DNA of 64,000 bases, from NCBI GenBank assembly GCA_030378005.1, contig JAUCGF010000078.1, forward strand, positions 1-64,000. The letters run 5' to 3'. Below are positions 4,267 through 46,323 of this stretch, in pieces. The stretch is from Desulfococcaceae bacterium HSG9 (GTDB lineage: Bacteria > Desulfobacterota > Desulfobacteria > Desulfobacterales > JAUCGF01). Under the pieces are notes generated by a model. The model ran no database searches, had not been told where the DNA came from, and worked only from the letters and a program-made list of their open reading frames with translations. A program made the position numbers and the translations under genes. How positions within the stretch are numbered: position 1 is the first letter of the stretch; every line of letters starts with the position of its first letter.

Positions 4267-6906
4267 ATGCGTCCTTCAAAAATCACTCCCATGTTAAAGC
4301 AATACTTAACAATTAAGGATAAGCATCCGGATGCGATTTTGTTTTACCGCATGGGAGATTTCTATGAAATGTTTTTTGAGGACGCCAAGACCGCTTCACG
4401 CCTGCTGGACATCACCCTGACATCCCGCAATAAAAAAGACGACACTCCGATCCCCATGTGCGGCGTTCCGTATCGAGCGGCAAAGGCATATATTGCGAAG
4501 ATGATTGAAGGCGGCCTTAAAGTCGCTGTCTGCGATCAGGTTGAAGACCCTGGTGCCGCCAAGGGGCTGGTCAAACGGGAAGTGGTGCGGGTTATCACTC
4601 CCGGAACGATTATCGAAGATGAACTGCTCAATCCGAAAATAAATAATTATATTCTGGCTGCGGTTCAAAATGGCAAAAAAGTAGGCATCGCTTCCTTAGA
4701 TATTTCCACCGGCACATTCCGATGCACTGAATCGGAAAAAGACCCCGCTCTTGAAGAGATTCAACGAATTGCGCCCAGTGAAATCATTGTTCCCGAATCA
4801 GCGCGTACATCACCTCTGGCTTTGGCGATTAAGCGTAAGTTTTTAACTGAAACCCCTCTGACATTTCTAAAAGATAATGTTTTTAAATACCGTTCGGCCT
4901 ATAACCGTTTGCTTGACCAGTTTAACACACAATCTTTGGACGGATTCGGTGGCCGGCAATTCAGCGCCGGAGTGGAGGCGGCCGGCGCTCTGCTCTTTTA
5001 TGTGAGAGAGACCCAAAAAAATAAAATATTCCATATCACTCGACTTGAAACCTATTTTTTAAGCCATTATCTTTTTATTGATGATTTAAGTTGCCGGAAT
5101 CTTGAGCTTTTTCGTAATTTACAAACCGGCTCTAAAAAAGGCAGTCTGCTCAGTGTGATAGATCGCACCCTTACACCTATGGGCGGCCGTCTTCTGAACA
5201 ACTGGCTGCGATATCCGCTTAAAGATGAGAAAACAATTTTACTTAGGTCGGGTGCGGTTGAAGAAACCCTCAGCAACAACCAGGCTTGCACCCCTCTTCG
5301 CAGGGCGTTAAAAGCGGTTTATGATTTGGAACGCCTTACCGGCCGTATCACAATGGGGCATGGCAATGCCCGTGATTTGACAGCGTTAAAATCTTCGCTT
5401 ATTCAATTGCCGAAAATTTGGTCGACTGTGGCAACTTTTAAATCCGGTTTTTTTCATCATAATGCCAATTCCGATTTTGAAGAAATTTTAAATCAGTTGG
5501 CCGAACTGGCCGCAACCATTGATACAGCCATTCGGGATAATCCGCCGGTTAAAATAAATGAAGGCGGCATTATCAAAAGCGGTTATAATGTGGAATTAGA
5601 TGAACTTGTCAATATCAGCCGGGATGGCAAAGGCTGTTTAGCGCGTCTGGAAGCGGAAGAAAAAAAGGCCACCGGTATTCAGTCGCTCAAAGTAAAGCAT
5701 AATAAAATTTTCGGATACTATATCGAAATTCCCAAAGCCCGTCTGGAATTCGTACCGGCACATTATATTCGGAAACAAACGCTGGTGAACGCCGAGCGGT
5801 TCATCACAGAGCAATTAAAAACGTTTGAAATTAAAGTATTAGGTGCCGAAGAGCAACGTGCAGTCCTGGAATATACGCTTTTTACGGAGATCAAAGATCA
5901 GGTGGTTCGTTACAATGAAGCCCTCCGGCAAGCGTCTCACTTTTTAGCTCGTCTGGATTGTGTGCTGGGATTGGCGGCCATAGCCGATGAAAATAATTAT
6001 TCACGGCCTGAAATCAATTCACAAGGGTGCATCAGTATTCGTGAGGGGCGTCATCCGGTGATTGAAAAAATGATCGCAGGCGAACGGTTCGTTCCCAATG
6101 ATATTATTCTGGATAATCACGAAAATCAGATTCAAGTGATCACCGGCCCGAATATGGCAGGCAAATCCACTATTTTACGACAAGCGGCGCTAACGGTGCT
6201 GATGGCTCAGATGGGGTCTTTTGTTCCGGCAGAGCATGTTTCTTTGAGCCTTACAGATCGAATTTTCACTCGTGTGGGAGCTTTGGATAACCTCTCTCAG
6301 GGACAAAGCACATTTTTAGTTGAAATGCAGGAAACCGCCAATATTCTGAATAATGCCACCTGCCAGAGTTTGATTATTCTGGATGAAATCGGAAGAGGCA
6401 CCAGCACTTATGATGGTCTGAGTTTAGCGTATGCAGTCGCTGAATACTTGCACGATTTCAAACAAAAAGGTGTTAAAACCCTTTTTGCCACCCATTATCA
6501 CGAACTCACCGAACTCGCAGAAACCAAACCGCGTGTACAAAATTACAATATCGCTGTGAAAGAGTGGAATGATGAAATCATTTTTTTAAGAAAATTGGTG
6601 CCAGGCGGAACCAATCGAAGCTATGGTATTCAGGTAGCGCGTCTGGCCGGCATTCCGGATAATGTCATTCAGCGGGCGCAAAAAATATTAATGACCATTG
6701 AAAATCGTGAACAAACGCCTCAAGAGGCCATTGTAAGTGAAGCCGTTGAAAGCGATGGCTATATTCAACTCAGTCTCTTTCGCAAACCGGAAACAATAAT
6801 TATTGAAAATTTGCAAAAAATGGATATGATAAGGACTACGCCTATTGAAGCGCTGACTGTTTTAAATGAATTGCATGAAATGGCGCTGCAAATACCGTCC
6901 GGTTGA
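4267..6906 (+). CDS. mutS: DNA mismatch repair ATPase MutS
   Basis: A full-length 879-residue MutS. It recognises mismatches and small loops in DNA and recruits MutL in an ATP-dependent way. The mismatch-reading Phe-X-Glu motif is intact (GDFYEMFF, residues about 30-37). The Walker A motif GPNMAGKST is at about 626-634 and the Walker B region LIILDEIGRGTS at about 701-712, followed by the conserved ATHYHEL. Connector, lever and clamp regions lie between these, and the length is normal for the family. It starts at ATG 4267 after a 162-base spacer and is followed by amiC in the same direction 126 bases later. MutL is not in the window. Confidence 0.97.
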   Translation: MRPSKITPMLKQYLTIKDKHPDAILFYRMGDFYEMFFEDAKTASRLLDITLTSRNKKDDTPIPMCGVPYRAAKAYIAKMIEGGLKVAVCDQVEDPGAAKGLVKREVVRVITPGTIIEDELLNPKINNYILAAVQNGKKVGIASLDISTGTFRCTESEKDPALEEIQRIAPSEIIVPESARTSPLALAIKRKFLTETPLTFLKDNVFKYRSAYNRLLDQFNTQSLDGFGGRQFSAGVEAAGALLFYVRETQKNKIFHITRLETYFLSHYLFIDDLSCRNLELFRNLQTGSKKGSLLSVIDRTLTPMGGRLLNNWLRYPLKDEKTILLRSGAVEETLSNNQACTPLRRALKAVYDLERLTGRITMGHGNARDLTALKSSLIQLPKIWSTVATFKSGFFHHNANSDFEEILNQLAELAATIDTAIRDNPPVKINEGGIIKSGYNVELDELVNISRDGKGCLARLEAEEKKATGIQSLKVKHNKIFGYYIEIPKARLEFVPAHYIRKQTLVNAERFITEQLKTFEIKVLGAEEQRAVLEYTLFTEIKDQVVRYNEALRQASHFLARLDCVLGLAAIADENNYSRPEINSQGCISIREGRHPVIEKMIAGERFVPNDIILDNHENQIQVITGPNMAGKSTILRQAALTVLMAQMGSFVPAEHVSLSLTDRIFTRVGALDNLSQGQSTFLVEMQETANILNNATCQSLIILDEIGRGTSTYDGLSLAYAVAEYLHDFKQKGVKTLFATHYHELTELAETKPRVQNYNIAVKEWNDEIIFLRKLVPGGTNRSYGIQVARLAGIPDNVIQRAQKILMTIENREQTPQEAIVSEAVESDGYIQLSLFRKPETIIIENLQKMDMIRTTPIEALTVLNELHEMALQIPSG

Positions 6907-7032
6907 TAAAAAGCATTGCTTCAAATAGCATCGCCATCTGAGCCTGGCGCACGTCGTAATATTTAGAAATATCCTCGCTTTTATCGGCTGCAAAAATTCT
7001 TGCGCAATATCCACAATTTAAATTAAGAGACT

Positions 7033-8763
7033 ATGTCAAAACACATTTTGTTTATATTAAGCGGGCTGTTTGTAAGTTTGCTTCTGCTGATTTGGCCAAG
7101 CTCAATACTGGCCAATCAGATTAAAACTCAATATATCAATGCTGAAAAATGCTATGCTGAACTACATGCAAGTCCGACTAAGCAGAAATATCGCAACAAT
7201 TGGCTGATGTGCATTGAACAGTTTCAAACGATTTACAAGCAAGCTCCTTCGGGGCGGAAGGCGACAGCCTGTCTCTATATGAGCGGTAAACTGTATCAGG
7301 AACTATACCAAATATCCGCAATCGAGTCTGATCGAACTGAAGCGATTGACCTTTTTATACGTATTCTCAAACGTTTCCCGGATAGCGAGTACAAAGATAA
7401 AGCAATTGTGGCATTGCGTATCTTTTCAAAAGAAGATAGCAAGCGCAATAAAACCACTCGCCCTCTGCCGCCGACCGGTGCTAAAGATTCACTCTCGCAA
7501 TTGATTACTGAAGATGGGAAAGCCGCGGACAAGGAAAAGAAACCGACCAAGACACAAATTCAACCCCGTATTCAAATTCCAGCACAAGATGATTTGAAAG
7601 ATACCGCTTCAACCGGTCAGTATAGTGTGGTCACCGGACTGCGTTTTTGGTCGAATCCCAGTTACACTCGCGTTGTCATTGATGCTGATAAAGAAATCAA
7701 CTATCTGCATGAACTCATTCCTAAAAAGCGCTCTATCAACAAACCCCATCGTTTGTATATTGATTTGTCTGAGAGCATCCTTAAACAGGGATTTAAGAAA
7801 TTTGTTTCAATTAATGACCATCTGTTGATTGACGTTCGCGCCAGTCAGCGTTCGCTCAAAACAGTGCGTGTTGTAATCGACATAAAATCTTATAAAAGGT
7901 ATAAAATTTTTTCGTTAAAGCATCCGTTCAGGATTGTCGTTGATGTGTGGGGGAAGGAATCTGAGAAAACCGTTGCCAAGCACAAGGGCAGTGTAACACC
8001 TAAAATTAAGGGGAAACAAACCATTGCCCGGCAGTTTGCCTTGGGGGTCAGGCGAATTGTGATCGATCCGGGCCATGGCGGCCATGATTTCGGAGCACCC
8101 GGTTATCGCAAGGGGGTGCATGAAAAAGATGTCGTTCTGGCAATATCTAAAAAACTGGCCCGTAAAATGCGCCGTGAACTTAAATGTGAAGTTATTATGA
8201 CCCGTACCAAAGATCGCTTTATTTCACTTGAAGAGCGCACCGCCCTGGCCAACACTAAAAATGCAGATCTTTTTATTTCGATTCACACCAATGGGTTTAG
8301 CAACCGTCGGGCCTATGGTATTGAAACCTATTTCCTGAACCTTGCGACCGATAAAGATGCCATGCGCGTCGCCGCCCGTGAAAATGCCACTACCACTAAA
8401 AATATCAGTGATCTTCAAACCATTCTGACCGATTTAATGAAAAATGCCAAAATTAACGAATCCAGCCGAATGGCCGGTTATGTTCAGAAATCACTCTATC
8501 GCACCTTGCGTAAAAAATATAGCCACATTAAGAACAAAGGCGTCAAACAGGCTCCGTTTTATGTTCTTATAGGCGCTCAGATGCCGTCCATATTGGTTGA
8601 AACTTCTTTTATCAGCAATCCCCGGGAATGTAAGCGCTTAACCAGCCCAACCTATCAAAAACGATTGTGTGATGCCATTATACAAGGTGTCAAAGAATAC
8701 ATCCGTTCATTGAATCCCACTGCGTTTCGGCGCAAATCCCAACTAAAACGCTCATCATCATAA
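7033..8763 (+). CDS. amiC: N-acetylmuramoyl-L-alanine amidase with AMIN domain (AmiC type)
   Basis: A 576-residue exported peptidoglycan hydrolase that would cut the bond between muramic acid and the stem peptide, usually at the division septum. A signal peptide/membrane anchor covers residues 1-28. Residues about 35-130 look like helical TPR-type repeats, then comes a charged linker, and an AMIN septum-targeting domain spans about 195-310. The zinc-dependent Amidase_3 domain occupies about 337-565. It keeps the metal ligands: His in DPGHGG (about 346), Glu in HEKD (about 362), His in SIHTNG (about 416), and the catalytic Glu in LVETSFISN (about 521). The N-terminal TPR-like extension is not present in the E. 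coli enzyme. Confidence 0.92.
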   Translation: MSKHILFILSGLFVSLLLLIWPSSILANQIKTQYINAEKCYAELHASPTKQKYRNNWLMCIEQFQTIYKQAPSGRKATACLYMSGKLYQELYQISAIESDRTEAIDLFIRILKRFPDSEYKDKAIVALRIFSKEDSKRNKTTRPLPPTGAKDSLSQLITEDGKAADKEKKPTKTQIQPRIQIPAQDDLKDTASTGQYSVVTGLRFWSNPSYTRVVIDADKEINYLHELIPKKRSINKPHRLYIDLSESILKQGFKKFVSINDHLLIDVRASQRSLKTVRVVIDIKSYKRYKIFSLKHPFRIVVDVWGKESEKTVAKHKGSVTPKIKGKQTIARQFALGVRRIVIDPGHGGHDFGAPGYRKGVHEKDVVLAISKKLARKMRRELKCEVIMTRTKDRFISLEERTALANTKNADLFISIHTNGFSNRRAYGIETYFLNLATDKDAMRVAARENATTTKNISDLQTILTDLMKNAKINESSRMAGYVQKSLYRTLRKKYSHIKNKGVKQAPFYVLIGAQMPSILVETSFISNPRECKRLTSPTYQKRLCDAIIQGVKEYIRSLNPTAFRRKSQLKRSSS

Positions 8764-33789: not shown

Positions 33790-35964
33790 TCAAGCTGATT
33801 TCAGAATCATTCTGATTTTTTGGGCCAGGCGTCTGATATCAAAAGGTTTTTGAATAAAACCGCGACATCCTTTATTTAAAATTCGTTTCGCCTTGGTGTT
33901 AATAGCGTAACCACTGGAAAGTAAGGTTACAATATCAGGATCGAGCGCTTTTAACTGTTCAAAGGTTTCTTCGCCCCCTTTATGGGGCATAATAATATCC
34001 AGAATTACCAAGTCAATGCGATCATGATCAGCTTTGTAAATATCAACGGCTTCCTGGCCGCTGCGGGCTGTCAATACCGTGTATCCTAAAAGCTCAAGCA
34101 TCTCCCCGCCGACTGTAATGACAATATCTTCATCATCAACCAATAAAATAGTTTCGTTGCCGCCTTCAATGGGGGCATCGTCAGTTTCTTCGACCAGGTC
34201 GGTTTCCAGTTTGCCAGATGCCGGCAGATAAATATTAAACGTCGTGCCTTCTCCCTTTTCACTGTAAACATTGATTATGCCGCCATGTTTTTTAATAATG
34301 CCAAATGCCGATGTCAGGCCTAACCCCGTGCCTTCGCCTTTTGATTTGGTCGTAAAAAACGGATCAAAAATTTTTGTCTGAGTTTCCTGATCCATGCCCA
34401 TGCCTGTGTCAGTAATCGCCAGCCTGACATAATGGCCAGATGACAGTATCTGCGACATAACGGATTCTTTGTTTATGTAAATGTTTTCAGTTTCCAGATA
34501 AAGATCGCCGCCGGAAGGCATCGCATGTGCTGCATTAACAAAAAGATTGAGAAAAACCTGCTCAATCTGGCCCTGATCCGTATCTGCTTTGTAAAGTTCG
34601 GCTTGCATGTTCTTATGAATAGAGATTTCTTTATGCGTGCGGGAAAACAGTTTGGCGCTTTTGGTGATCAAGGCATTCAAATCAGTTGTCTGCATTTCCA
34701 AGGAATCACCTCGGGATAGAGTCAGCAGTTGCTGAGTGAGTTCGGTACCGCGCTGTACATAATGTTCAATATTTTGCAATTTTTCTACAAAAGCCGGAGC
34801 AGTATCTGTGTACATTAACATAAGCGAGGCATTGCCCTGAATTCCCATCAACAAATTGTTAAAATCATGTGCGATGCCACCCGCCAAATTGCTAGTCGCT
34901 TCAAATTTTTGAGCCTGATGAAACTGGTTTTCCAATTTGGTTTTATCTTTCTCGACGCGCTTACGTTTTGAAATATCAAATACGGTTATTTGAACGGCAG
35001 GCACTCCTTCCCATTCAATCGGCATAACGCGCATATCCAGCCAAATCAATTGGTCATCTTTATCCACACCTTGACATTCGTACTGACTGGGAACATTTTC
35101 ACCTTTTATGCGGGCTTCATAATAATCAGATAAGCGTGATCGTTCATGAGCGGCAAAGAGTGGAAGAACCGATTCCATTGCAAGAATTTCATCTACTGAA
35201 TAACCATAAATATCAGCATACGCTTGGTTTATTAAAATTGGTTTGAAATTACGATGAATCAGGATACCTTCAATGGAACCTTCAATCAGGTTGCGAAAAC
35301 GCTTATCGCTGGAACTCGCTGCCTTCCAGGCTTTCCGTTTTTCGGTAATATCCTGAAACACTATAACAACCCCTGTGATAACGCCGTCAGTATTAAGAAT
35401 CGGAGCGGCACTATCTGCAATAGAATGAGTTGTGCCATCTTTGGCGATTAAAAGCATGTTTTCGGCTTGTTCGATAACATTTTTTTCGCGCAATACTTGC
35501 TGAAAAGGACTTTCTAAGGAAGACCGGGTCAGTTCATCCTTAATAACAAACACTTTGTCTATCTGGCAACCACGGGCATCGGCTAATTCCCATCCGGTCA
35601 GCTTTTCCGCCACCGGATTCATGCGTATCACACATCCTTTGGCATCCGTAGCGATGACGGCATCACCAATTGAATTTAAAGTGATTTTCAGATTTTCTTC
35701 ACTTTCCCGTAATGCTACATTTTTTGCTGATAGCAGTTTAATATGGGAAGTCAGCCGACTATTCAGATGTGTTATACGTGAGTAAAACGATCCCACAATT
35801 AAACCCGCAAGTGCGCCAAAAAACACAGGTACAATGAAGCCTTTAAGTTCTAATGGAAGGCCGAGATAGATTTTTTGGATTAATGCCAACAAAGTAAGGA
35901 GCAAAGCTCCTGAGACAATTGCCGTGCCGATAATTCGATAAGAATGAAATTGATTTTTTTTCAT
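33790..35964 (-). CDS. Hybrid sensor histidine kinase with PAS domains and receiver
   Basis: A 724-residue membrane sensor. Two N-terminal TM helices lie at about residues 10-60. Two PAS domains follow ([20 protein letters not shown], then [20 protein letters not shown]). The HisKA H-box is [12 protein letters not shown], and the ATPase domain has [20 protein letters not shown]-terminal receiver domain starts [12 protein letters not shown] (phospho-Asp in LVILDIIMP). The start lies 6 bases after the radical SAM gene's stop, so it belongs to the same operon. This suggests the system senses or responds to a signal. Confidence 0.9.
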
Positions 35965-35970
35965 TATATA

Positions 35971-37167
35971 TTATAGTTTTTTTTCATCCCGCCATACGCC
36001 GGGAATAACAGTTTTGCAAAATTTACAGCGATTGCCGTTCATATTGAATACAGGTATAAAATACCCCTGTCTTTCGATCAACAATTCTTTACAATTGTGG
36101 CAGTAAGTGTTGTTGCCTTCGTGTGTATGCACATTGCCAAGATAAACATAACGGATGCCCTCGTTTATGGCCAACTCTCTGAAACGCACCAGCGTTGAAA
36201 TCGGTGTGGGCGGCAAGCGATTCAATTTGTATTTGGGGAAGAATCGTAGAAAATGTAATGGATAATTCGGCCCCAGATTTTTTAGAATCCATTGACACAT
36301 CCGCTTGGCCATATCTTCATTATCCACATATCCGGGCACTAACAGATTTGTCATTTCAAAGTGAACCCCTTGAGCATGAAGGGTTTTAAACGTATTTAGC
36401 ACCGGTTCCAGACGTCCGCCGTTTAATTTGCGATAGATGGCGTCATCAAAAGATTTCAAATTGATATTGGCGCCGTCCAACACTTTGCACAGTTCGAGAA
36501 GCGGCTTGCGATTGATGTAGCCGTTGGAGATCAAGAGATTATCAATCCCTTGCTTGCGAGATAAACGGGCGGTGTCGATCATATATTCAAAAAAGGTGAC
36601 AGCTTCGGAATAGGTGTAGGCAATCGCTTCGCTGCCGGTGCGTTGCGTTTCAGCAACGACTTGGGCGGGGAACAAGTCGTAATGACGCACATCCTCCGGC
36701 CGAACCTGGGAGATTTCCCAATTCTGGCAATTCAGACAGCGAAAATTGCAACCGGTCGCGGCGATAGAAAAGACTTTGGCGCGAGGTTTGAAATGGTACA
36801 GCGGTTTTTTTTCAACCGGATCGACGTTTGCCGAACAAGGATTGCCGTAAGCCAAACTGTATAGCTTGCCATCAATATTCACACGGGAGCGGCAGACACT
36901 CCGGTCTCCCGGTGAAAGCAGGCAACGGTTAGGGCATAAAGCGCACATCACGCGTTTACGTTCTAATTTACCGTAATGATAACCTTCGCGCGACCACTTC
37001 CATAAAGTTTCAGGGGCATCCCCTTTAAATATTTCACCTTGAATATCGGTCGCGCCGGATGCTATCGCGTTTTTATCGGAAAATGGCCAGAATGCTTGTG
37101 CGGACAATGGCGTTGCCAGCAGAGCGGCACTGCAACAGATAAATTGGCGTCGGTTTATTTTATCCAT
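35971..37167 (-). CDS. AmmeMemoRadiSam-system radical SAM enzyme with Tat-type signal
   Basis: A 398-residue radical SAM protein of the AmmeMemoRadiSam group. The cluster CNFRCLNCQNWEIS (CxxxCxxC for the SAM-binding 4Fe-4S) follows an early extra region with CALCPNRC. A C-terminal segment has paired cysteines (CHNCKEL; CKFCKTV). The N-terminus NRRQFICCSAALLATPLSAQA has a twin-arginine RRxF motif, a hydrophobic stretch and an AQA cleavage site. This predicts export of a folded, cofactor-loaded enzyme to the periplasm. The start overlaps the end of the spermidine-synthase-like gene by 13 bases. Its substrate is unknown. Confidence 0.9.
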   Translation of the reverse strand: MDKINRRQFICCSAALLATPLSAQAFWPFSDKNAIASGATDIQGEIFKGDAPETLWKWSREGYHYGKLERKRVMCALCPNRCLLSPGDRSVCRSRVNIDGKLYSLAYGNPCSANVDPVEKKPLYHFKPRAKVFSIAATGCNFRCLNCQNWEISQVRPEDVRHYDLFPAQVVAETQRTGSEAIAYTYSEAVTFFEYMIDTARLSRKQGIDNLLISNGYINRKPLLELCKVLDGANINLKSFDDAIYRKLNGGRLEPVLNTFKTLHAQGVHFEMTNLLVPGYVDNEDMAKRMCQWILKNLGPNYPLHFLRFFPKYKLNRLPPTPISTLVRFRELAINEGIRYVYLGNVHTHEGNNTYCHNCKELLIERQGYFIPVFNMNGNRCKFCKTVIPGVWRDEKKL

Positions 37168-39302
37168 GATTTACTCCCGATAACGGTTAAACTGACAATT
37201 TTGATGCTAATTAAAACAACGGTCGTCCATACCAAACCCAGGTAAGGAATCAAGACTGCGCTGACACACAATGCCCCCATGGCCGCGCCTAGCAGGTCAG
37301 CCGAAAAAGCACGACTTGCAGCCGGATTGTCATCGCCGCGTAAACAAAGCGCCGCCGGAAATTGGCAACCGCAAACAAGCGCTGTCATAAAACCGAATCC
37401 CAGAAAAGCGGCCGGCGGTAACCGGTCACCACCGAACAGCACGGCAACAATAAAAATTCCCAAAAATAAAATAAGCAGAATATCGGTCAATACAAGCACA
37501 AATTGGCCTTGACGCTTCAAGCGGTCGCCTATCCAGGCACCGGGCAATAAACCGGATAAAAAAAGGGTGACGATAATTCCGATCTGAAAATAGATATATC
37601 CGAAAAAAATTTGAAAAGCAAATATAACCAAAATTTCACTGCCCATGGTCATGGCACCGGTAGTGAATAGCACAAATTCCTCTTTGGAGATACGCATTAG
37701 ATAGAAGGTCAGCAGAACCGCTAAAGCAATGATAAAACTGACGGGCGATGTGCCGAATTTGGCAAACCATTGGGAAAACATCAGGCGCATCAAATAGGGC
37801 GATAGATCACGGTTCACCGGTGTATCAGGGTCTATCAGGCCGTTAAGATATTGGATGCGGTCAGTTGTCAGATTGCCGTAATAATAGCTCCGAATATATT
37901 CTGTGGTGATGCCTTTTTGTTCCAAAAGCTCAGGTATATCGGTATTTAAGGGTTGGTTACGGCAAAGAAATATGATCTCTTGTCCCGGCAGAAGCAAAAT
38001 ATGTTTAAAATATGCGGCTGCGGTGTTGTATAAAGAAGAAATTTTCTGGCGCTGAGGTTCAGCCAGATAATTGTCAAAACCGGACATGCTGAAACTGACA
38101 ATCCCGTCCGGCGCAAGATGCCGTTTGGCCAGTTGAAAGAAACGATCCGTAAAAAAACGGTTCATTTGAAAGGTTTCCGGTTCGGGCAGATTTATAATAA
38201 TCGCATCGTAAAGAGGTTTATGGCCTGAACGACTATGCGCCTGTTGCGATAGATAGGCGCGGCCATCCTGATGAATGATATTGAGACCGGGAATCTTCTG
38301 AAGCAGACCGTAGTGAAACTGGATACGGGCGACTTCCGGATCCAGCTCAACATAATCTGCCTGTTGGGGATGATATTTCTGCAATTGTGTGAGCATCCCC
38401 GCCTGAGCCGAAATCAAAAGAATGCGTTGCGGACGCGCGTTTGCGGAAAGTTGCGCCATCGGATAATGGATGGCCTCCTCTGCCCGGACTATATTTTGAT
38501 TGCTGAAAAGGGGCGAGCCATCAACGAACAGCGTAAATTGCTCATGATCCTGATGCACTGTGATACGACCATAACGTGACTCATTATAATAGGCTGATTT
38601 CCCGGTCTGAGGTTTCAGGGATGCGCGTTCCCAATAAATTCCGGCCGCGAGCAAAACCAGAGTAAACCCCAAACCGCAGATTACCCCGGGTTGCAATCGT
38701 TGCCGCGCTGGAAATAATCGCCAAGCGGCGATCAATAGTGGCAGATTCGCTGCAAAAACCGCTTTTAGTGGTGATAACAGGAAAACCAGTACAAACGAAA
38801 ACAGCGCGCCGCCGACCACATCCCCAAGATTATCTGTGATGTAAAGCCGTGCTCCGGGATAATCCGGCGTTTCATTTCTGATAACATACAGACTATACGG
38901 CAGAACAAAACCCAGGAGCAGGCCATAAGGCATAATGAGGCTGAAACTATAAGCCAGTGTAGGATAAAAGCCTACCGATACGCCATGCGTAAAAAAAAAG
39001 TTTTTAAAAAACCGGATTGCCAGAATTTGAAGCGGCGTTAAAGCAGCCAGAATCAATGAAAGCCATGCTAGACGATTAACCGTCGGGCGCCATGTCCCCC
39101 CAAAAGACCGTTTAGTAATAACGCGGGAGAGCAACGTGCCGATTCCTCCCAGAATCAGCCAATTAAAAAAAATTAAGGCAATGACAAATTCGTTGCCCTG
39201 AAATTGGGCCAGAAATTCACGAATTGTCAGTAATTGGGTCACCACCGATGATATGCCGGTGGCCACAACAACTGCTAAAACCGCGCCTTCATTTTTGCTC
39301 AT
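37155..39302 (-). CDS. Membrane-embedded spermidine-synthase-like protein
   Basis: A 715-residue protein: about seven TM helices at the N-terminus, a soluble Rossmann-type domain resembling SpeE/methyltransferases at about residues 240-440, and about seven more TM helices. In SpeE the catalytic loop carries an Asp (DxxDP). Here the equivalent stretch reads INLPEPETFQ, so aminopropyl transfer is doubtful. The SAM-binding-like segment RILLISAQAGMLTQ is present. It overlaps the Memo-AMMECR1 gene by 14 bases and the radical SAM gene by 13. It may carry the substrate or product through the membrane, or modify a lipid-linked molecule. Confidence 0.85.
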   Translation of the reverse strand: MSKNEGAVLAVVVATGISSVVTQLLTIREFLAQFQGNEFVIALIFFNWLILGGIGTLLSRVITKRSFGGTWRPTVNRLAWLSLILAALTPLQILAIRFFKNFFFTHGVSVGFYPTLAYSFSLIMPYGLLLGFVLPYSLYVIRNETPDYPGARLYITDNLGDVVGGALFSFVLVFLLSPLKAVFAANLPLLIAAWRLFPARQRLQPGVICGLGFTLVLLAAGIYWERASLKPQTGKSAYYNESRYGRITVHQDHEQFTLFVDGSPLFSNQNIVRAEEAIHYPMAQLSANARPQRILLISAQAGMLTQLQKYHPQQADYVELDPEVARIQFHYGLLQKIPGLNIIHQDGRAYLSQQAHSRSGHKPLYDAIIINLPEPETFQMNRFFTDRFFQLAKRHLAPDGIVSFSMSGFDNYLAEPQRQKISSLYNTAAAYFKHILLLPGQEIIFLCRNQPLNTDIPELLEQKGITTEYIRSYYYGNLTTDRIQYLNGLIDPDTPVNRDLSPYLMRLMFSQWFAKFGTSPVSFIIALAVLLTFYLMRISKEEFVLFTTGAMTMGSEILVIFAFQIFFGYIYFQIGIIVTLFLSGLLPGAWIGDRLKRQGQFVLVLTDILLILFLGIFIVAVLFGGDRLPPAAFLGFGFMTALVCGCQFPAALCLRGDDNPAASRAFSADLLGAAMGALCVSAVLIPYLGLVWTTVVLISIKIVSLTVIGSKSWIK

Positions 39303-40788
39303 GGAAATATTGAACCTGATAGGTCTGAACCTCTAATTTTCCGTCTTTCCAAGCGTTGGCGGACAATCCCGCTTTACGGCACAAATGGGAAAGAAACGCT
39401 TCAGGGTCCGGCAACTGCTCCCATACCTGGGGCAAGAAAGTTGCGCTGGCCATCCCCTTGCGGATAATCAGGCCATCAATATCAGGCCGTAGTTTGGCGA
39501 TTAAGTCGGCCCCATCTTTATATGCCAATGGTTGCGGTTCGGTGAGAATGCTGATTTCGATATCTGTTTTATCCAGTTCGGAGGGTTGCAGATTATTAAA
39601 ACGAGGATCGCCGAAAGCCGCGTTGGCCGCGTTGCGTTTTACGCCATCAACAACAGATTCCACGGCATTTAAACTGCCGATACAACCTCTGAGCTGGCCG
39701 TCAATGGTCAGTGTGACAAATGTGCCGCGGCGGTTTTTAAGTTCTTTGGCCTGGAGTGTAGTCACCGCGGATTCAGGAAGTGTGGTTTTTTTGCCAAGAC
39801 GTGCGGCAATGGTTTGGCGCGCCAATTTGACCAGCGCTTGTCCCTGGTCATCACGAAATTTCAAAGTTTTTTTGATTTCTTTTTGATCATAAGCGTTCAT
39901 TGATGAACCTCCGTAAAAGGCGATTGCCGCGTAGCCCACAACGCGCTTGTGATCTCCTGCGGTATCGCCGCTGTTAGAATAATGAAGCAATTGCGGATGC
40001 CATCCGTGCAGGCGGGCCAGATGAAGCAAAATCGCAATCGGAACGACGCCACAGGCGGCATTGTCGCGTTGCAACAATTTTTTCGCTTTTAAAGCGGAAA
40101 TCATTTTAAGCGTTTCTTTATCAAAAGCCACCGCTTTATCGTAGGAAAGAAAGTGAGACAGGTCCGAACTGACGGCGAGTAGCGTTTTCTGATCAAGTCG
40201 CGTATTGATAGCATCCGCCATGCCTTTGATATCTCCTCGTCCTAAAACAATTGGAACCAGTTCAAATTTTTTCAGATAATATTGCAAAAAGGGAAGTACG
40301 GCCTCCAGCGAATGTTCACCGCGGTCCGAAGCTGGAACCGTTTTAAACAGATCGGTTTGTAACAGTTGGGCGGCGTCTTTATGCAATTTGATCTGTCCCA
40401 ACGGTGTTTCGTAAGCTCCGGAATCGGTAATCGCGCCATTAGAAAAGCCGACGCGGTGATCCGGACCTAATAAAATAACCTTGTCAAACTGATTTTCGGA
40501 AAGAAGATGTGAGGCATGAGCGGCGGTCAATCCGGAATAGACGTAACCGGCGTGCGGAAGAATCAGCGCTTTTAAAACGCCTTGCCCGGGTGTGTCAATT
40601 TTGGTTTGCTGTGCCTGGCGGGTTAAGTGTTCAATCAGTTGCGTCAATTGCGCGCGGTCGGATGGATAAAACTGGCCTGCAACGGCCGCTTTACGGACTT
40701 TGGCCGCATTAACACCACCAGCATACAGAAAAACTCCTAAACTCAGCAAACATACCGTTTTCAGAAAATTGCGAAAATACGATTTCAT
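39289..40788 (-). CDS. Memo-AMMECR1 fusion protein with Sec signal (AmmeMemoRadiSam system)
   Basis: About 499 residues from ATG 40788 (MKSYFRNFLK...). The longer in-frame start would place the Shine-Dalgarno AAAGGAGG inside the coding region. The signal peptide ends near YAGGVNAA. A Memo domain (about 35-290, LPHAGYVYSGLTAAHA, GPDHRV, ACGVVPIA) is followed by an AMMECR1 domain (about 325-490, GTFVTLTIDGQLRGCIGSL with the LRGCIG motif). Memo is related to LigB dioxygenases and may bind a metal. It is the first gene of the operon. Fusion of the A and B parts is one of the known AmmeMemoRadiSam layouts. Confidence 0.9.
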   Translation of the reverse strand: MKSYFRNFLKTVCLLSLGVFLYAGGVNAAKVRKAAVAGQFYPSDRAQLTQLIEHLTRQAQQTKIDTPGQGVLKALILPHAGYVYSGLTAAHASHLLSENQFDKVILLGPDHRVGFSNGAITDSGAYETPLGQIKLHKDAAQLLQTDLFKTVPASDRGEHSLEAVLPFLQYYLKKFELVPIVLGRGDIKGMADAINTRLDQKTLLAVSSDLSHFLSYDKAVAFDKETLKMISALKAKKLLQRDNAACGVVPIAILLHLARLHGWHPQLLHYSNSGDTAGDHKRVVGYAAIAFYGGSSMNAYDQKEIKKTLKFRDDQGQALVKLARQTIAARLGKKTTLPESAVTTLQAKELKNRRGTFVTLTIDGQLRGCIGSLNAVESVVDGVKRNAANAAFGDPRFNNLQPSELDKTDIEISILTEPQPLAYKDGADLIAKLRPDIDGLIIRKGMASATFLPQVWEQLPDPEAFLSHLCRKAGLSANAWKDGKLEVQTYQVQYFHEQK

Positions 40789-40932: not shown

Positions 40933-41991
40933 TTAAATAACCTGCTTTGAATATGAGACTTGAGGACTATAAGCTCCCAAGTGTAGAATATTTAAAGAAG
41001 CGTTGAGATCGGCATCCATAATATTTCCACAAGCACATTTGTAAATCTCACCCCTACGGTTTGACTTACAAATAGCTTCGCAACTTGAGCAACGTTGGCT
41101 CGTATATTGAGGTGGGACTTTCTTAAACAAAATCCCCTGCTCTTCACAAGTCAACGCAAGTTTACTCAAAACTTTTGGATAAACCCACCGCGCAAGTTTG
41201 TTGTTAAAAGATTTTCTTATCTTGCCTTTGGATTTATGCTTTACATTCTTTAAATCCTCAGCGTACAAGGCTTTGGTATCACTCAAATCTAAAAGGTTAC
41301 ATGAAGCGTTAACAAGATTATCGCGTTCTGCCAAAGCCCTCTTAAACGCCTTGGAACCTTGCTTCTTTCCAGCTATCTTCTCATAAATTTTGTTGTCTCC
41401 TAAAAACTCACCGTCTGAACTCACGATTAACTTTTTGTACCCTATATCTATCGCTTTCGGCTTGCCTTGAGTCCTTATAGCAGGTGGCTTCTTTTGAAAA
41501 AATAAATCGATAAAACAGCCCTTATCTGTAATTCTCAACCTTGTCGAACCTTTAAGCAGCCACTCATCCCCTGTCAGTTTATTTATATGAGTATGTTTCC
41601 TCGAAGGCAAATTTAAGATAATTCTATTTCCTATGGAAGCCAAATGCACCCAAACATCAAAAGTACTATCATCCAAATCTTGAGTGACAGTCACAAATCG
41701 TGAGTCTAACTCCATCACAAGTTTATTAAATTTCGGTTTCGTTTTTCTCTTCTTTTTTCTTTGAGATTTAACAATAGCAAGAGCTTGCTTTGCGGCGGCT
41801 TGCCTCAACCTGGCAGAAAGCCAGCTCTCAACTGCGGTATTTTTTACAAACTTACCGGAGAATTGTTTTTGTTTCCAAAGGGAGTCAATGAAAAGATTTA
41901 CAACCCTTTGATACTCTATGGCTGTGGTGTGAACTTTTTGGAGCTTTCCGGCATTGGCGTATTTAAGATTCACAGTTGATTTTCTTATCAT
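40933..41991 (-). CDS. tnpB: TnpB RNA-guided nuclease (IS200/IS605-family OrfB)
   Basis: A 352-residue TnpB. RuvC-type catalytic residues are present: Asp in AIDIGYKKL (about 182), Glu in YAEDLKNV (about 242) and Asp in MDADLNASLNI (about 327). The zinc finger RCSSCEAICKS...YKCACG at about 300-320 is intact. The protein has an intact basic N-terminal helix region. Known TnpB proteins use an omega RNA made from the 3' end of the element to cut DNA. No tnpA transposase is nearby, so it is a solitary copy that may persist for its nuclease activity. Confidence 0.9.
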   Translation of the reverse strand: MIRKSTVNLKYANAGKLQKVHTTAIEYQRVVNLFIDSLWKQKQFSGKFVKNTAVESWLSARLRQAAAKQALAIVKSQRKKKRKTKPKFNKLVMELDSRFVTVTQDLDDSTFDVWVHLASIGNRIILNLPSRKHTHINKLTGDEWLLKGSTRLRITDKGCFIDLFFQKKPPAIRTQGKPKAIDIGYKKLIVSSDGEFLGDNKIYEKIAGKKQGSKAFKRALAERDNLVNASCNLLDLSDTKALYAEDLKNVKHKSKGKIRKSFNNKLARWVYPKVLSKLALTCEEQGILFKKVPPQYTSQRCSSCEAICKSNRRGEIYKCACGNIMDADLNASLNILHLGAYSPQVSYSKQVI

Positions 41992-42320: not shown

Positions 42321-43571
42321 ATGACTGATCAAGAAATCGTTGTTGTCGGCTATGACACCGTTTCAGCGTTAGGAACCGATTCAGATATTCAATGGCGCCG
42401 GGCGTTGAATGGCGAAAGCGGTATCGGTAAATTAACGCGCTTTCCCGCAGATAATAATTTTCCGGTTCATATTGCCGGTCAGGTTGATGACTTTGACGCC
42501 AAACATTACCCCTTTCTAACGCCGCGTGCGTTGGCACTTTGGCCATCTCCTCTCTTTAAATTTGGGATGCTGGCGGTTCATCGCGCGCTTGAAGATAGCG
42601 GGATTGAAATCACACCGGCACTTGCGCCAAGGGTTGGCGTTACTTTCAGTTCGGCGGTGGGTGGATTAGATGCGGTGCTGCAAGCGGATCGACGTTTGAT
42701 TGCCAAAGGCAAATTGCCAACGCCTTCGGCCAATCCCAACTCATGTATTAACATGGTGGGCGGTAAAGTGTCCATTTTAACGGGTGCCACAGGCCCCATC
42801 ACAGCAACGATAACCGCCTGCGCCACCGGTGTCACCTCAATTATTATTGGGTGTATGATGCTGAAACAGCGTATAGCGGATGTCGTTGTGTGCGGAGCGG
42901 TTGATTTTGCCCTGGTGGCACCGATTGTGGCCGGCTTTGCAACCATGAACGGCGCTTTCAGAACCCATCCGGAAATTTCCGATGAATCTGCGGCAAGTGC
43001 AAGCCGACCGTTTTCAATTCATCGTCGCGGATTTGTCATAAGCGAAGGCGCGGGCGCGATTATCCTGACTACGGATGAATTCGCAAAGGCGCACGGGTTG
43101 ACGGTTTATTCCGCAATCGCCGGATGGAGTATGACATCAGACGCTCATCATTTTGTAGCCCCCAATTTTGACACGGTTAAACGGTGTATTGCCGAAAGCA
43201 TTATTGATTCTGGAATTGCACCGGAAGATATTGATGCCGTCAACGCCCATGCCACATCGACAAAAGTGGGGGATAAAGTGGAATATGATGCTCTTAAAGC
43301 TGTTTTTGGAAAAAAACCACCCCCGATTTCGGCCAATAAATCGCTTATCGGTCATGCCATGGGAGCTTCCAGTGCGATTGAAGCTGTTTTTGCAATCCGA
43401 GGTATGCAAAGCAGTCGGCTGCTTCCAACGATTAATTACACACCCGATCCCGCTATGGAACTGGATTGCGTCTCGGAAGGCGCGCGCAGGCTAAATCAGG
43501 AATTTGTTTTAAAAAACGCATTCGGATTCGGCGGCTGCAATTCATGTATTGTTTTTCGCAGGGTCGGATGA
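42321..43571 (+). CDS. Beta-ketoacyl-ACP synthase (FabF/KS-II type)
   Basis: A 416-residue condensing enzyme. The catalytic triad is visible: Cys in ITACATGVTS, His in VNAHATSTKVGD, and His in SLIGHAMGASS. The N-terminus VVGYDTVSALGTD and C-terminal NAFGFGGCNSC are typical of the thiolase-fold KS family. It joins acyl groups to malonyl-ACP. It is the first gene of a four-gene plus-strand cluster; the next ketosynthase begins about 160 bases later. The intact triad argues for real catalysis rather than a chain-length-factor role. Confidence 0.9.
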   Translation: MTDQEIVVVGYDTVSALGTDSDIQWRRALNGESGIGKLTRFPADNNFPVHIAGQVDDFDAKHYPFLTPRALALWPSPLFKFGMLAVHRALEDSGIEITPALAPRVGVTFSSAVGGLDAVLQADRRLIAKGKLPTPSANPNSCINMVGGKVSILTGATGPITATITACATGVTSIIIGCMMLKQRIADVVVCGAVDFALVAPIVAGFATMNGAFRTHPEISDESAASASRPFSIHRRGFVISEGAGAIILTTDEFAKAHGLTVYSAIAGWSMTSDAHHFVAPNFDTVKRCIAESIIDSGIAPEDIDAVNAHATSTKVGDKVEYDALKAVFGKKPPPISANKSLIGHAMGASSAIEAVFAIRGMQSSRLLPTINYTPDPAMELDCVSEGARRLNQEFVLKNAFGFGGCNSCIVFRRVG

Positions 43572-43580
43572 AGAATGCGG

Positions 43581-43589
43581 GTAACCGTT
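43581..43589 (+). repeat. Second occurrence of the GTAACCGTT repeat
   Basis: The 9-base GTAACCGTT and the bases after it (cactccccttt) resemble the outer arm of the nested palindrome at 28378. No matching right arm was found nearby, so it may be a solo end. Confidence 0.3.
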
Positions 43590-43663
43590 CACTCCCCTTT
43601 GCAAATTGCGAATGAGGGTAATTTCGAAGAAATAGTGAAGAATGATTGAATTACTTGTAATTT

Positions 43664-43719
43664 CTTAATCATACTCTTAATCGTTTGGGATTAAGATTAC
43701 GATTAAGAGTAAGATTAAG
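43664..43719 (+). repeat. Near-perfect 20-bp inverted repeat before the second ketosynthase
   Basis: CTTAATCATACTCTTAATCG (43664-43683) and its complement (43700-43719) match at 19 of 20 bases, with a 16-base loop of related GATTAAG units. The hairpin would sit 14 bases before the second ketosynthase ATG (43733) in the operon mRNA and could affect its translation. Confidence 0.6.
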
Positions 43720-43732
43720 ACTTCAATTGAAC

Positions 43733-44998
43733 ATGAAAGCACCTTTAAACAGAAAAGTATTTGTGATCGGTTACGGAGCTGCTACGGCCTTAGGCAGCAC
43801 CTTTCAAAGAACTTATATGCGAGCGGTGAAAGGTGAAGCCGGATTCAGAAAAGTAACCAAATGCGAGGTTAATTCTTTAAGCAATGTCGTCGGCGAAATT
43901 CCTGATTGGGATCCGCTGGCAAACGATTTCGTCAATCGTCGAGAGGTTCACAACTGGAACGCCGCTTTTGTTTTATTAACGATGGCTATCTGCAAGGAAG
44001 CGTTAACCCATTCGGGGCTGGAAATCAATCGTGACACCGGCCCCCGCACGGCTTGCATGATCGGATCAGCTTTGAACGGGTCGGATGCGTTCCGCATTGC
44101 GACTGACAACTTACTGAATCGCGGGCCGTTTAAAATCAGCCCTTATCTTTTGCCCAATTTATGCGCGAATGTGCCATCCGGTAAAACCGGGATGATGTTA
44201 GGATTTACCGGCCCGGTTTTTTCCCCTCAGGGAGCCTGCGCTTCCGGCAATCATGCCATCGGAATCGGCGCGCGCATGATTCGGGATGGCGATTGCGATT
44301 TCGTTTTAGCCGGCGGCGTGGATACGTGTATTATACCGGAGATTATTCACGGTTTTGCCAATATGAACGCTACCTTGAAAGTGGTCGAGGGGGATCGCGC
44401 TTTTACCGATCCGACCCAAGCTTCACGTCCTTTCAGCATTGACCGTAAAGGTATGGTACTGGCTGAAGGCGGCGGCGTGTTGGTTCTGGCTGCGGAAGAG
44501 ATGTTGCCGGTTTATGGATTGACGCCCAGAGCCGAAGTGGCAGGCGTCGGATGGACTTCGGATGCGCATCATTTTACATTGCCAAATGCAGAAACTGTCA
44601 CTCGAGCGATCCGGCAGGCCATTGATGACGCGGAAATTCAGATGTCCGATGTTCAGTATGTCAATGCTCATGGAACATCCACACCCAAAGGCGATCTGAC
44701 CGAAATTGAATGTCTGCGCACGGTTTTCGGAGATATGCTTAAAAAAATTCCCATATCATCCAATAAATCTCAAATCGGACATACGCTGGGCGGTTCGGCC
44801 GCTATTGAAGCGGCTTTAAGTATTGAAAGCATGCAAAACGGTCTGATTTTGCCTACCGTGAATCATATTCCGGATCCGCTATTCGCCGGAATAGACGTGG
44901 TTCCCAATACGGCACGTCGGCAGATATATGAATTTTTTCTGTCTGACGCTTTCGGTTTTGGCGGAACCAATTGTTGCATTATTTTTAAAGGTGTTTGA
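43733..44998 (+). CDS. Beta-ketoacyl-ACP synthase (second copy, FabF-like)
   Basis: About 421 residues from ATG 43733 (MKAPLNRKVFVIGYGAATALG). An upstream in-frame start would run through the repeat, giving a low-complexity MGLRLRLRVRLRLQ leader, so it is rejected. Active-site residues are present: Cys in GACASGNHAIG, His in VNAHGTSTPKGD, and Lys-His in SNKSQIGHTLGG. The C-terminus DAFGFGGTNCCI is typical. It is a paralogue of the preceding ketosynthase but diverged, so the two may act on different chain lengths or work as a pair. The thioesterase gene starts 12 bases later. Confidence 0.88.
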   Translation: MKAPLNRKVFVIGYGAATALGSTFQRTYMRAVKGEAGFRKVTKCEVNSLSNVVGEIPDWDPLANDFVNRREVHNWNAAFVLLTMAICKEALTHSGLEINRDTGPRTACMIGSALNGSDAFRIATDNLLNRGPFKISPYLLPNLCANVPSGKTGMMLGFTGPVFSPQGACASGNHAIGIGARMIRDGDCDFVLAGGVDTCIIPEIIHGFANMNATLKVVEGDRAFTDPTQASRPFSIDRKGMVLAEGGGVLVLAAEEMLPVYGLTPRAEVAGVGWTSDAHHFTLPNAETVTRAIRQAIDDAEIQMSDVQYVNAHGTSTPKGDLTEIECLRTVFGDMLKKIPISSNKSQIGHTLGGSAAIEAALSIESMQNGLILPTVNHIPDPLFAGIDVVPNTARRQIYEFFLSDAFGFGGTNCCIIFKGV

Positions 44999-45010
44999 TT
45001 ACAAAATGTT

Positions 45011-45490
45011 ATGAATCCTTCTCCTTTGAAAGTTAAAGCGCTGAAAGCGCATTTAAACTATGTACACACCCAGTCGGATGGCCTTATTTGGCATGTCTGC
45101 AAACATCGTGTGTTGTATGCCGATACGGATTGTTCCCAGACGGTTTACCATTCCAATTACTTACATTATTTTGAACTGGGACGCACGTCTCTGATGCGCA
45201 CGGCGGCGTATCCTTACCGTGAAATTGAAGATAGCGGCTATATTTATCCAATTATTGAGGTCGGCCTGAATATTTATACACCTTTACACTACGACGATAT
45301 GATGCTGATTTATACACGCCCGTCTGAACGTGAACGAGTCAAGCTCCGGTTTGACTATATTATCACACAGGAAACAACGAACACGATTGTTTGTGAAGGG
45401 TTTACTCGCCACTGCGCCACCAACGCCGCGGGTATTCCCGTAGCGGTCGATGAAAAAACGGTTAAACTGTGGAAAAATTTTCCAAAATAA
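45011..45490 (+). CDS. Hotdog-fold acyl thioesterase (YbgC/4HBT type)
   Basis: A 159-residue hotdog protein. The typical segment VLYADTDCSQTVYHSNYLHY carries the catalytic Asp of the 4HBT/YbgC family. FELGRTSLMR follows. Such enzymes release fatty acids from CoA or ACP. It starts 12 bases after the second ketosynthase and overlaps the dehydratase gene by 22 bases, so it should be co-translated. Confidence 0.85.
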   Translation: MNPSPLKVKALKAHLNYVHTQSDGLIWHVCKHRVLYADTDCSQTVYHSNYLHYFELGRTSLMRTAAYPYREIEDSGYIYPIIEVGLNIYTPLHYDDMMLIYTRPSERERVKLRFDYIITQETTNTIVCEGFTRHCATNAAGIPVAVDEKTVKLWKNFPK

Positions 45491-46323
45491 CCAATCGGTT
45501 GCGCTTGCCTCTGAAAATACCGGATGCATCATATCTCCAGGATCATCGGTTTGAAGGACGGACTGTTCTTCCTGCGGTTGAGGCGATGCAGATTTTAGCG
45601 TTGACAACCAAAGCGTACTTACCAAAAACCGATATTCATTTAATCCATGATGCACGCTTTGATAAATTTCTTTACATAGATTCTGAAAATCGGTCGTTCA
45701 ATGCTTTTAATGCAATTCAAGTTGATGAAAATGGTGCTATACATGCCAAACTGATCACCAAAACAGGCTCGTCCAAGACAACGATCACCCGGGTGAAAGA
45801 ACATGTAAGCCTGACCTTTGGCATAACGACGCCTCATAAACAACCGCTGTTTAAAAAAAATTATAACCGAGATCCGCCATACATGATTTCAACATCCAGG
45901 CTCTACAAAGATTTAGTTCCTTTCGGCCCGGATTTTCAAAATATAAAAAAATTGTATCTTTATAAGGACAGCGTTGAAGCGACAATCAAATCTGCTATGA
46001 GCGGTTCGACCGGGCCTGAACCGCTGGGTTCTCCCTTTCCTTTAGACGCCGCCTTTCATGCGGCTTGCGCCTGGGGGCAACGCTATGCTGATGTAGTCGC
46101 ATTTCCCGTTGGATTCGATCATCGCCGGATTATCAATCCGACATATTGCGGAGAAACATACAAAGCCCAAATTAAGTTCGTTCAAACAGAAAAAACCGCC
46201 CTCATTTTTGACATAAACATTTATTCTTCAAACGGCGACCTTTGTGAAATGCTGAAAGGTGTTTGTATGCGGGACGTCAGTGCGGGGCGCATGAAGCCTC
46301 CTCTGTGGATTAAATCCAGTTAG
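45469..46323 (+). CDS. Double-hotdog dehydratase (PS-DH type)
   Basis: A 284-residue protein with two hotdog repeats. The first holds the H(x3)G(x4)P-type active-site motif in DHRFEGRTVLP. The second holds an Asp-containing motif (LDAAFHAACAWGQ). These are the His-Asp dyad parts of polyketide-synthase dehydratases, which remove water from 3-hydroxyacyl chains. It overlaps the thioesterase gene by 22 bases. With two ketosynthases, this could be a small unsaturated-chain pathway, but ketoreductase and ACP genes are not seen nearby. Confidence 0.8.
   Translation: MEKFSKITNRLRLPLKIPDASYLQDHRFEGRTVLPAVEAMQILALTTKAYLPKTDIHLIHDARFDKFLYIDSENRSFNAFNAIQVDENGAIHAKLITKTGSSKTTITRVKEHVSLTFGITTPHKQPLFKKNYNRDPPYMISTSRLYKDLVPFGPDFQNIKKLYLYKDSVEATIKSAMSGSTGPEPLGSPFPLDAAFHAACAWGQRYADVVAFPVGFDHRRIINPTYCGETYKAQIKFVQTEKTALIFDINIYSSNGDLCEMLKGVCMRDVSAGRMKPPLWIKSS

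Follow-up and report, generated by a model that had tools for sequence, protein, structure and literature searches.

A putatively exported AmmeMemoRadiSam system with a SpeE-like membrane protein in Desulfococcaceae bacterium HSG9 and its relatives

Our study reports on a locus in a 64,000-nucleotide stretch of DNA from Desulfococcaceae bacterium HSG9 (the window), which probably encodes an AmmeMemoRadiSam system in an exported form that acts on the outside of the inner membrane. AmmeMemoRadiSam is a little-understood three-part system that is normally intracellular, and radical SAM enzymes, which need SAM and a strong reductant, are treated as cytoplasmic. The components of the locus are already catalogued; what appears to be new is the exported location of the system and of its radical SAM enzyme. 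An initial annotation had placed the whole system on the outer side of the inner membrane, and the comparison presented here strongly supports that placement at the level of sequence, through conserved signals, a positive-inside bias shared by all 52 homologues of the membrane protein and a sister branch carrying a CxxCH motif. The same annotation would have given up the idea had both signal peptides been missing from close homologues; the comparison of loci gave the opposite outcome, with the signals conserved.

The locus comprises genes for a fusion of the Memo and AMMECR1 proteins, a membrane protein with a SpeE-like domain (SPE), a radical SAM enzyme and a hybrid histidine kinase, and these four open reading frames were recovered with the coordinates, order and near-overlaps that had been claimed for them (Table 1). 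By these coordinates the fusion and SPE genes overlap by 14 nt and the SPE and radical SAM genes by 13 nt; the ATG of the kinase lies 6 nt past the radical SAM stop on the same strand. The fusion gene has a good ribosome-binding site (AGGAGG). A scan for promoters and terminators returned counts close to the shuffle expectation and is of no use as evidence, and looking for an arbitrary DNA pattern upstream gave no lead. Directly upstream of the trio lies an open reading frame for a TnpB-like RNA-guided nuclease (window 40933-41991, minus strand; NF040570 at 83.8 bits, under the cut-off of 100), and on the plus strand 42321-46323 is occupied by a cluster of fatty-acid/polyketide type, in which two ketosynthases stand in a row with a 4HBT thioesterase and a PS-DH dehydratase; genes corresponding to the ketosynthases are found close to the trio in locus L114 and, in part, in L116.

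Table 1. Features of the locus (window coordinates) and radical SAM enzymes of the sister branch (locus coordinates).
Feature	Position	Strand	Description
Memo-AMMECR1 fusion	39289..40788	minus	499 aa; AmmeMemoRadiSam proteins B and A in one chain
Sec-type signal peptide of the fusion	40705..40788	minus	residues 1-28, predicted cut between GVNA and AK, from sequence
SPE	37155..39302	minus	715 aa; membrane protein, 7 TM, SpeE-like domain, 7 TM
SpeE-like domain of SPE	37743..38630	minus	residues 225-520; predicted outward-facing
Radical SAM enzyme	35971..37167	minus	398 aa; TIGR04337, PFL-activase-like
Tat-type signal peptide of the radical SAM enzyme	37093..37167	minus	residues 1-25, NRRQF...SAQA, followed by FW
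Radical SAM CX3CX2C motif	36727..36750	minus	C140, C144, C147
Membrane hybrid histidine kinase	33790..35964	minus	2 TM, 2 PAS, HisKA, HATPase, REC
CxxCH radical SAM enzymes	L127:7150-8406(-), L128:8077-9411(-), L131:8773-10056(+), L132:7141-8478(+), L134-L147, L164-L174		

The locus was compared with a set of about 120 loci, 80 from public genomes and some 50 more from relatives, sampled with the window's radical SAM enzyme as seed, gene-called by simple means and drawn mostly from draft metagenome-assembled genomes; the compared sequences are related, and the counts given below are not counts of independent events. The trio of fusion, SPE and radical SAM enzyme is conserved in Thermodesulfobacteriota, Bacteroidota, Ignavibacteriota, Verrucomicrobiota and other phyla. 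An all-against-all comparison of the loci revealed no ferredoxin, cytochrome, transporter or other neighbour conserved beyond the trio across lineages. In the Bacteroidales loci L080, L082-L086, L088 and L093 the trio sits inside a longer conserved block (families f5-f9 and f11) that is confined to this order. In two loci, L100 and L112, the radical SAM enzyme has no signal, the adjoining Memo fusion is exported and the SPE beside it is far longer, at 1212-1303 aa; in L090 the radical SAM enzyme is likewise without a signal while Memo is exported.

The radical SAM enzyme passes the NCBIfam model TIGR04337 (342 bits, cut-off 220), and the best Foldseek match of its fold is the pyruvate formate-lyase (PFL)-activating enzyme (8fo0/3cb8, E 3.5e-15). 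Its CX3CX2C motif is invariant in all 44 aligned homologues, exported and cytoplasmic forms together; four N-terminal cysteines and the C-terminal CxxC pairs are likewise invariant in these 44 enzymes, and the motifs around the radical SAM cysteines are also unchanged between the two forms. The N-terminus reads MDKINRRQFICCSAALLATPLSAQA up to the predicted cut, followed by FWPF, and contains RRxF, a hydrophobic core and an A-x-A end. This arrangement, with RRxF, KRxF or RKxF, a hydrophobic core and an A-x-A-like end, recurs in Thermodesulfobacteriota, Bacteroidota, Ignavibacteriota, Verrucomicrobiota, Planctomycetota and others. By a loose rule, 49 of 61 radical SAM genes near an SPE gene are Tat-like, against 30 of 606 unrelated neighbour genes (about 5%), and the RRxF Tat-type signal reported earlier for this enzyme is thus more than a product of chance. 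The same rule scores 10 of 21 radical SAM genes without a visible neighbouring SPE as Tat-like, because many genes of the exported type are on truncated contigs or at a distance from SPE. Where SPE is encoded on the same strand, 59 of 65 enzymes have a Tat-like N-terminus, and the six misses include start-call errors or a cut contig as well as the true exceptions L100 and L112. The tables produced by the simple rules contain start-call errors, with L050, L060, L132 and L166 scored as signal-less despite a visible RR/KR signal or CxxCH.

TatC is present in the window's own genome (E 9.7e-73) and is matched in 33 of 38 further genomes to which the loci led, the five without a match being draft genomes. 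The sequence marks of a Tat substrate are found (twin arginine, hydrophobic core, A-x-A-like cut, conservation and TatC in the genome), and variants exist: KR or RK replaces RR in some exported-type enzymes (Bacteroidota, L045-L048), making a strict Tat reading less secure in those lineages.

The fusion passes the models for both of its parts, with 242 bits for Memo (TIGR04336, cut-off 26) and 203 bits for AMMECR1 (TIGR04335, cut-off 99), and contains the Pfam domains PF01875 and PF01871. The metal ligands H79, H111 and C246 and the RGC motif of AMMECR1 are invariant in all 38 homologues; the three ligands pair by motif with H49, H81 and C244, the metal ligands of human MEMO1 (PMC11081632). 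The predicted signal of the window protein is MKSYFRNFLKTVCLLSLGVFLYAGGVNA, with AK following the cut. A hydrophobic signal, sometimes with a lipobox, is present in 35 of the 38 fusions and missing from L078, L107 and L113, whose radical SAM enzymes also score without Tat. The Sec-type signal first seen in the window is a regular companion of the Tat-type enzyme, since a Memo signal is found in 45 of 45 scorable Tat-type loci.

An AlphaFold model of SPE (52 homologues, mean pLDDT 91.8) has seven helices, the SpeE-like domain and a further seven helices, the helix counts being those of the model with the final long helix (659-709) counted as two. The loops on the N-terminal side carry 14.7 lysines and arginines per protein, versus 2.9 on the opposite side, and the same positive-inside bias is seen in 52 of 52 homologues, which places the SpeE-like domain outside. 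The best Foldseek match of this domain is the aminopropyltransferase 1uir (E 5.8e-10). By sequence, the PF01564 match is weak and the protein falls far under curated cut-offs (PRK03612, 114 versus 472; speE, 31.5 versus 249.6); it scores 32.2 against NF037959 (fused MFS/spermidine synthase, cut-off 40), a model that a Bacteroidota homologue passes with 58.6. In the sequence alignment to 1uir, E319 and D346 are kept in 51 of 52 homologues; from known aminopropyltransferase structures we take these to be adenosyl-binding acids. The position of the SpeE catalytic aspartate is occupied by Asn371 in the window and the glycine loop is degenerate, in agreement with the earlier description of a domain lacking the catalytic Asp loop; across the 52 homologues the position is N in 22, D in 11, L in 7 and other residues in the rest. 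SPE may therefore hold or carry adenosyl compounds, as it keeps the adenosyl-binding acids without the catalytic aspartate. Close SPE genes adjoin a TIGR04337 gene in 14 of 16 cases among 40 relatives, and the other two lie on contigs without a TIGR04337 match. A haem b conduit in the SPE helices was considered and set aside, as the list of invariant residues holds no conserved membrane histidine.

The genome that contains the window also encodes a second TIGR04337 enzyme (C197), which has no N-terminal extension, and a second Memo (C22) that lacks a signal, while the only AMMECR1 of the genome is that of the window. A tree of 122 enzymes places the signal-less copies from the same order in a clade of their own (support 99), apart from the exported ones, and the Tat label requires only 10 changes on it; we conclude that the exported form is an old and distinct lineage. 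Close to the cytoplasmic copy (G000:C197; L133:857-1657 and 6407-7417) lies a gene of a SAM-methyltransferase-like family, members of which turn up in 18 loci, chiefly around cytoplasmic copies.

In 15 genomes of the same order, an insert with an invariant CxxCH (15/15) separates the Tat signal of the radical SAM enzyme from its core, and this motif is found in 0 of 67 other Tat-type enzymes; in nearly all of the inserts a histidine follows 10-20 residues further on. Most of these loci with a long enough contig also carry the Memo-AMMECR1 fusion and SPE, in the order radical SAM enzyme, Memo, SPE. Cytochrome c assembly protein is encoded in all 15 genomes, TatC in 14 of them. Attachment of c-type haem happens outside the membrane, so that haem at this CxxCH would independently place the radical SAM enzyme there. 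CxxCH can also bind metal other than haem; we infer that haem is the probable ligand, and the presence of the motif in this sister branch fits a periplasmic site.

These observations bear on whether the N-terminus of the radical SAM enzyme is an export signal at all. The RR/hydrophobic segment could be a mere membrane anchor or start-site noise, with the enzyme itself cytoplasmic and only the Memo fusion exported; the weak KR and RK variants of some lineages point this way, as do L100, L112 and L090, where a signal-less enzyme accompanies an exported Memo. We nevertheless judge this quite unlikely, as RRxF with an A-x-A-like cut is conserved over many phyla far above background, a haem-c-type motif follows the signal in the sister branch, the SpeE-like domain is predicted to lie outside and the genome keeps a separate signal-less paralogue. 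It is also conceivable, if unlikely, that the proteins are outside and conduct no radical SAM reaction there, the clusters serving in electron transfer or the enzyme binding a SAM-like nucleoside without radical chemistry. No source of SAM outside the membrane is known to us, nor is a low-potential donor there, and the haem variant resembles an electron-transfer module; against this reading stand the invariance, between exported and cytoplasmic forms, of CX3CX2C, the N-terminal cysteines, the C-terminal CxxC pairs and their surrounding motifs, and a fold match to a PFL-activase with SAM. With cluster and metal ligands all kept, the exported system looks functional as judged from its residues.

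The position of the kinase gene led the initial annotation to tie the system to a sensor, and the trio could on this basis make or modify an envelope signal that is read by the adjacent hybrid kinase, whose start lies so close on the same strand and which is kept in a same-genus genome. The tie is weak: besides the window, only that one genome (G001/L114) has an orthologue behind the trio, the other trio loci being without the kinase, and any match at E<=1e-150 is found in just 3 of 40 relatives. The protein has two N-terminal helices joined by a loop of about ten residues, followed by cytoplasmic PAS domains, with no evident periplasmic sensor, and kinase-like genes are abundant in these genomes, with 446 first-look candidates in that of the window. 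We therefore regard a signalling unit as very improbable and reject the kinase link as a general feature; the kinase may be co-transcribed with the trio and stands outside the conserved system.

Our structural and comparative data suggest a model for the activity of an exported AmmeMemoRadiSam system. The radical SAM enzyme would receive its clusters in the cytoplasm, be exported by Tat in the folded state and act at the outer face of the membrane together with the fusion and SPE. There it would generate a radical from SAM, as a PFL-activase does, on an envelope substrate that could be a protein, a peptide or a small molecule, and the Memo site, with two histidines and one cysteine binding Fe or Cu, may act on the same substrate or on the product. 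SPE would most plausibly serve the radical SAM enzyme by binding, supplying or removing adenosyl compounds (SAM, 5'-deoxyadenosine, methylthioadenosine). The electron source would be a periplasmic donor or, in the sister branch, the built-in haem-c-type module at CxxCH. The weakest points of this mechanism are the source of SAM and the electron donor, and no conserved gene for either was found in the loci. The full picture, in which many anaerobic bacteria conduct radical SAM catalysis outside the inner membrane, a 14-helix SPE handles SAM or its nucleoside products and one branch takes its electrons through covalent haem c, is put forward tentatively, as a possibility that we hold to be somewhat doubtful.

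A conserved exported version spanning several phyla raises the questions of the route by which SAM exits, of the reductant for the cluster and of the substrate in the envelope. It also gives the AmmeMemoRadiSam trio a physical setting and, in SPE, a testable partner, and both Memo and AMMECR1 have human homologues. Our search of published, mainly open-access literature turned up no account of a radical SAM enzyme that is exported, periplasmic or secreted and, for AmmeMemoRadiSam, neither a characterised activity nor a report of an outer location; for Tat in combination with radical SAM, the matches examined held only incidental co-mentions.

A comparison with known systems highlights both the kinship and the departures of the locus. 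All three components exceed the cut-offs of the AmmeMemoRadiSam models (TIGR04335, TIGR04336 and TIGR04337) with invariant cluster and metal ligands, whereas the window system differs in the signal peptides on the radical SAM enzyme and on Memo-AMMECR1, in the fusion of A and B, in a dedicated 14-TM SPE and, in the sister branch, in the CxxCH module. The PFL-activating enzyme, a glycyl radical activase, is nearest to the radical SAM core in solved fold and in sequence, but the window enzyme has an extra N-terminal cysteine cluster and C-terminal CxxC pairs, is predicted to be exported and has no adjoining glycyl radical enzyme that we could see. SPE shares with PRK03612 (NF002956) and the fused MFS/spermidine synthases (NF037959) the order of N-terminal helices followed by a SpeE-like domain, and the aminopropyltransferase fold; it differs in lying below their cut-offs, in the loss of the catalytic aspartate, in a second block of seven helices, in the predicted outer position of the domain and in adjoining the genes of an exported AmmeMemoRadiSam system. 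Human MEMO1, for which we know of no radical SAM partner, has the same H, H, C metal site by motif; it is intracellular, whereas the Memo of the window is predicted to be secreted and is fused to AMMECR1.
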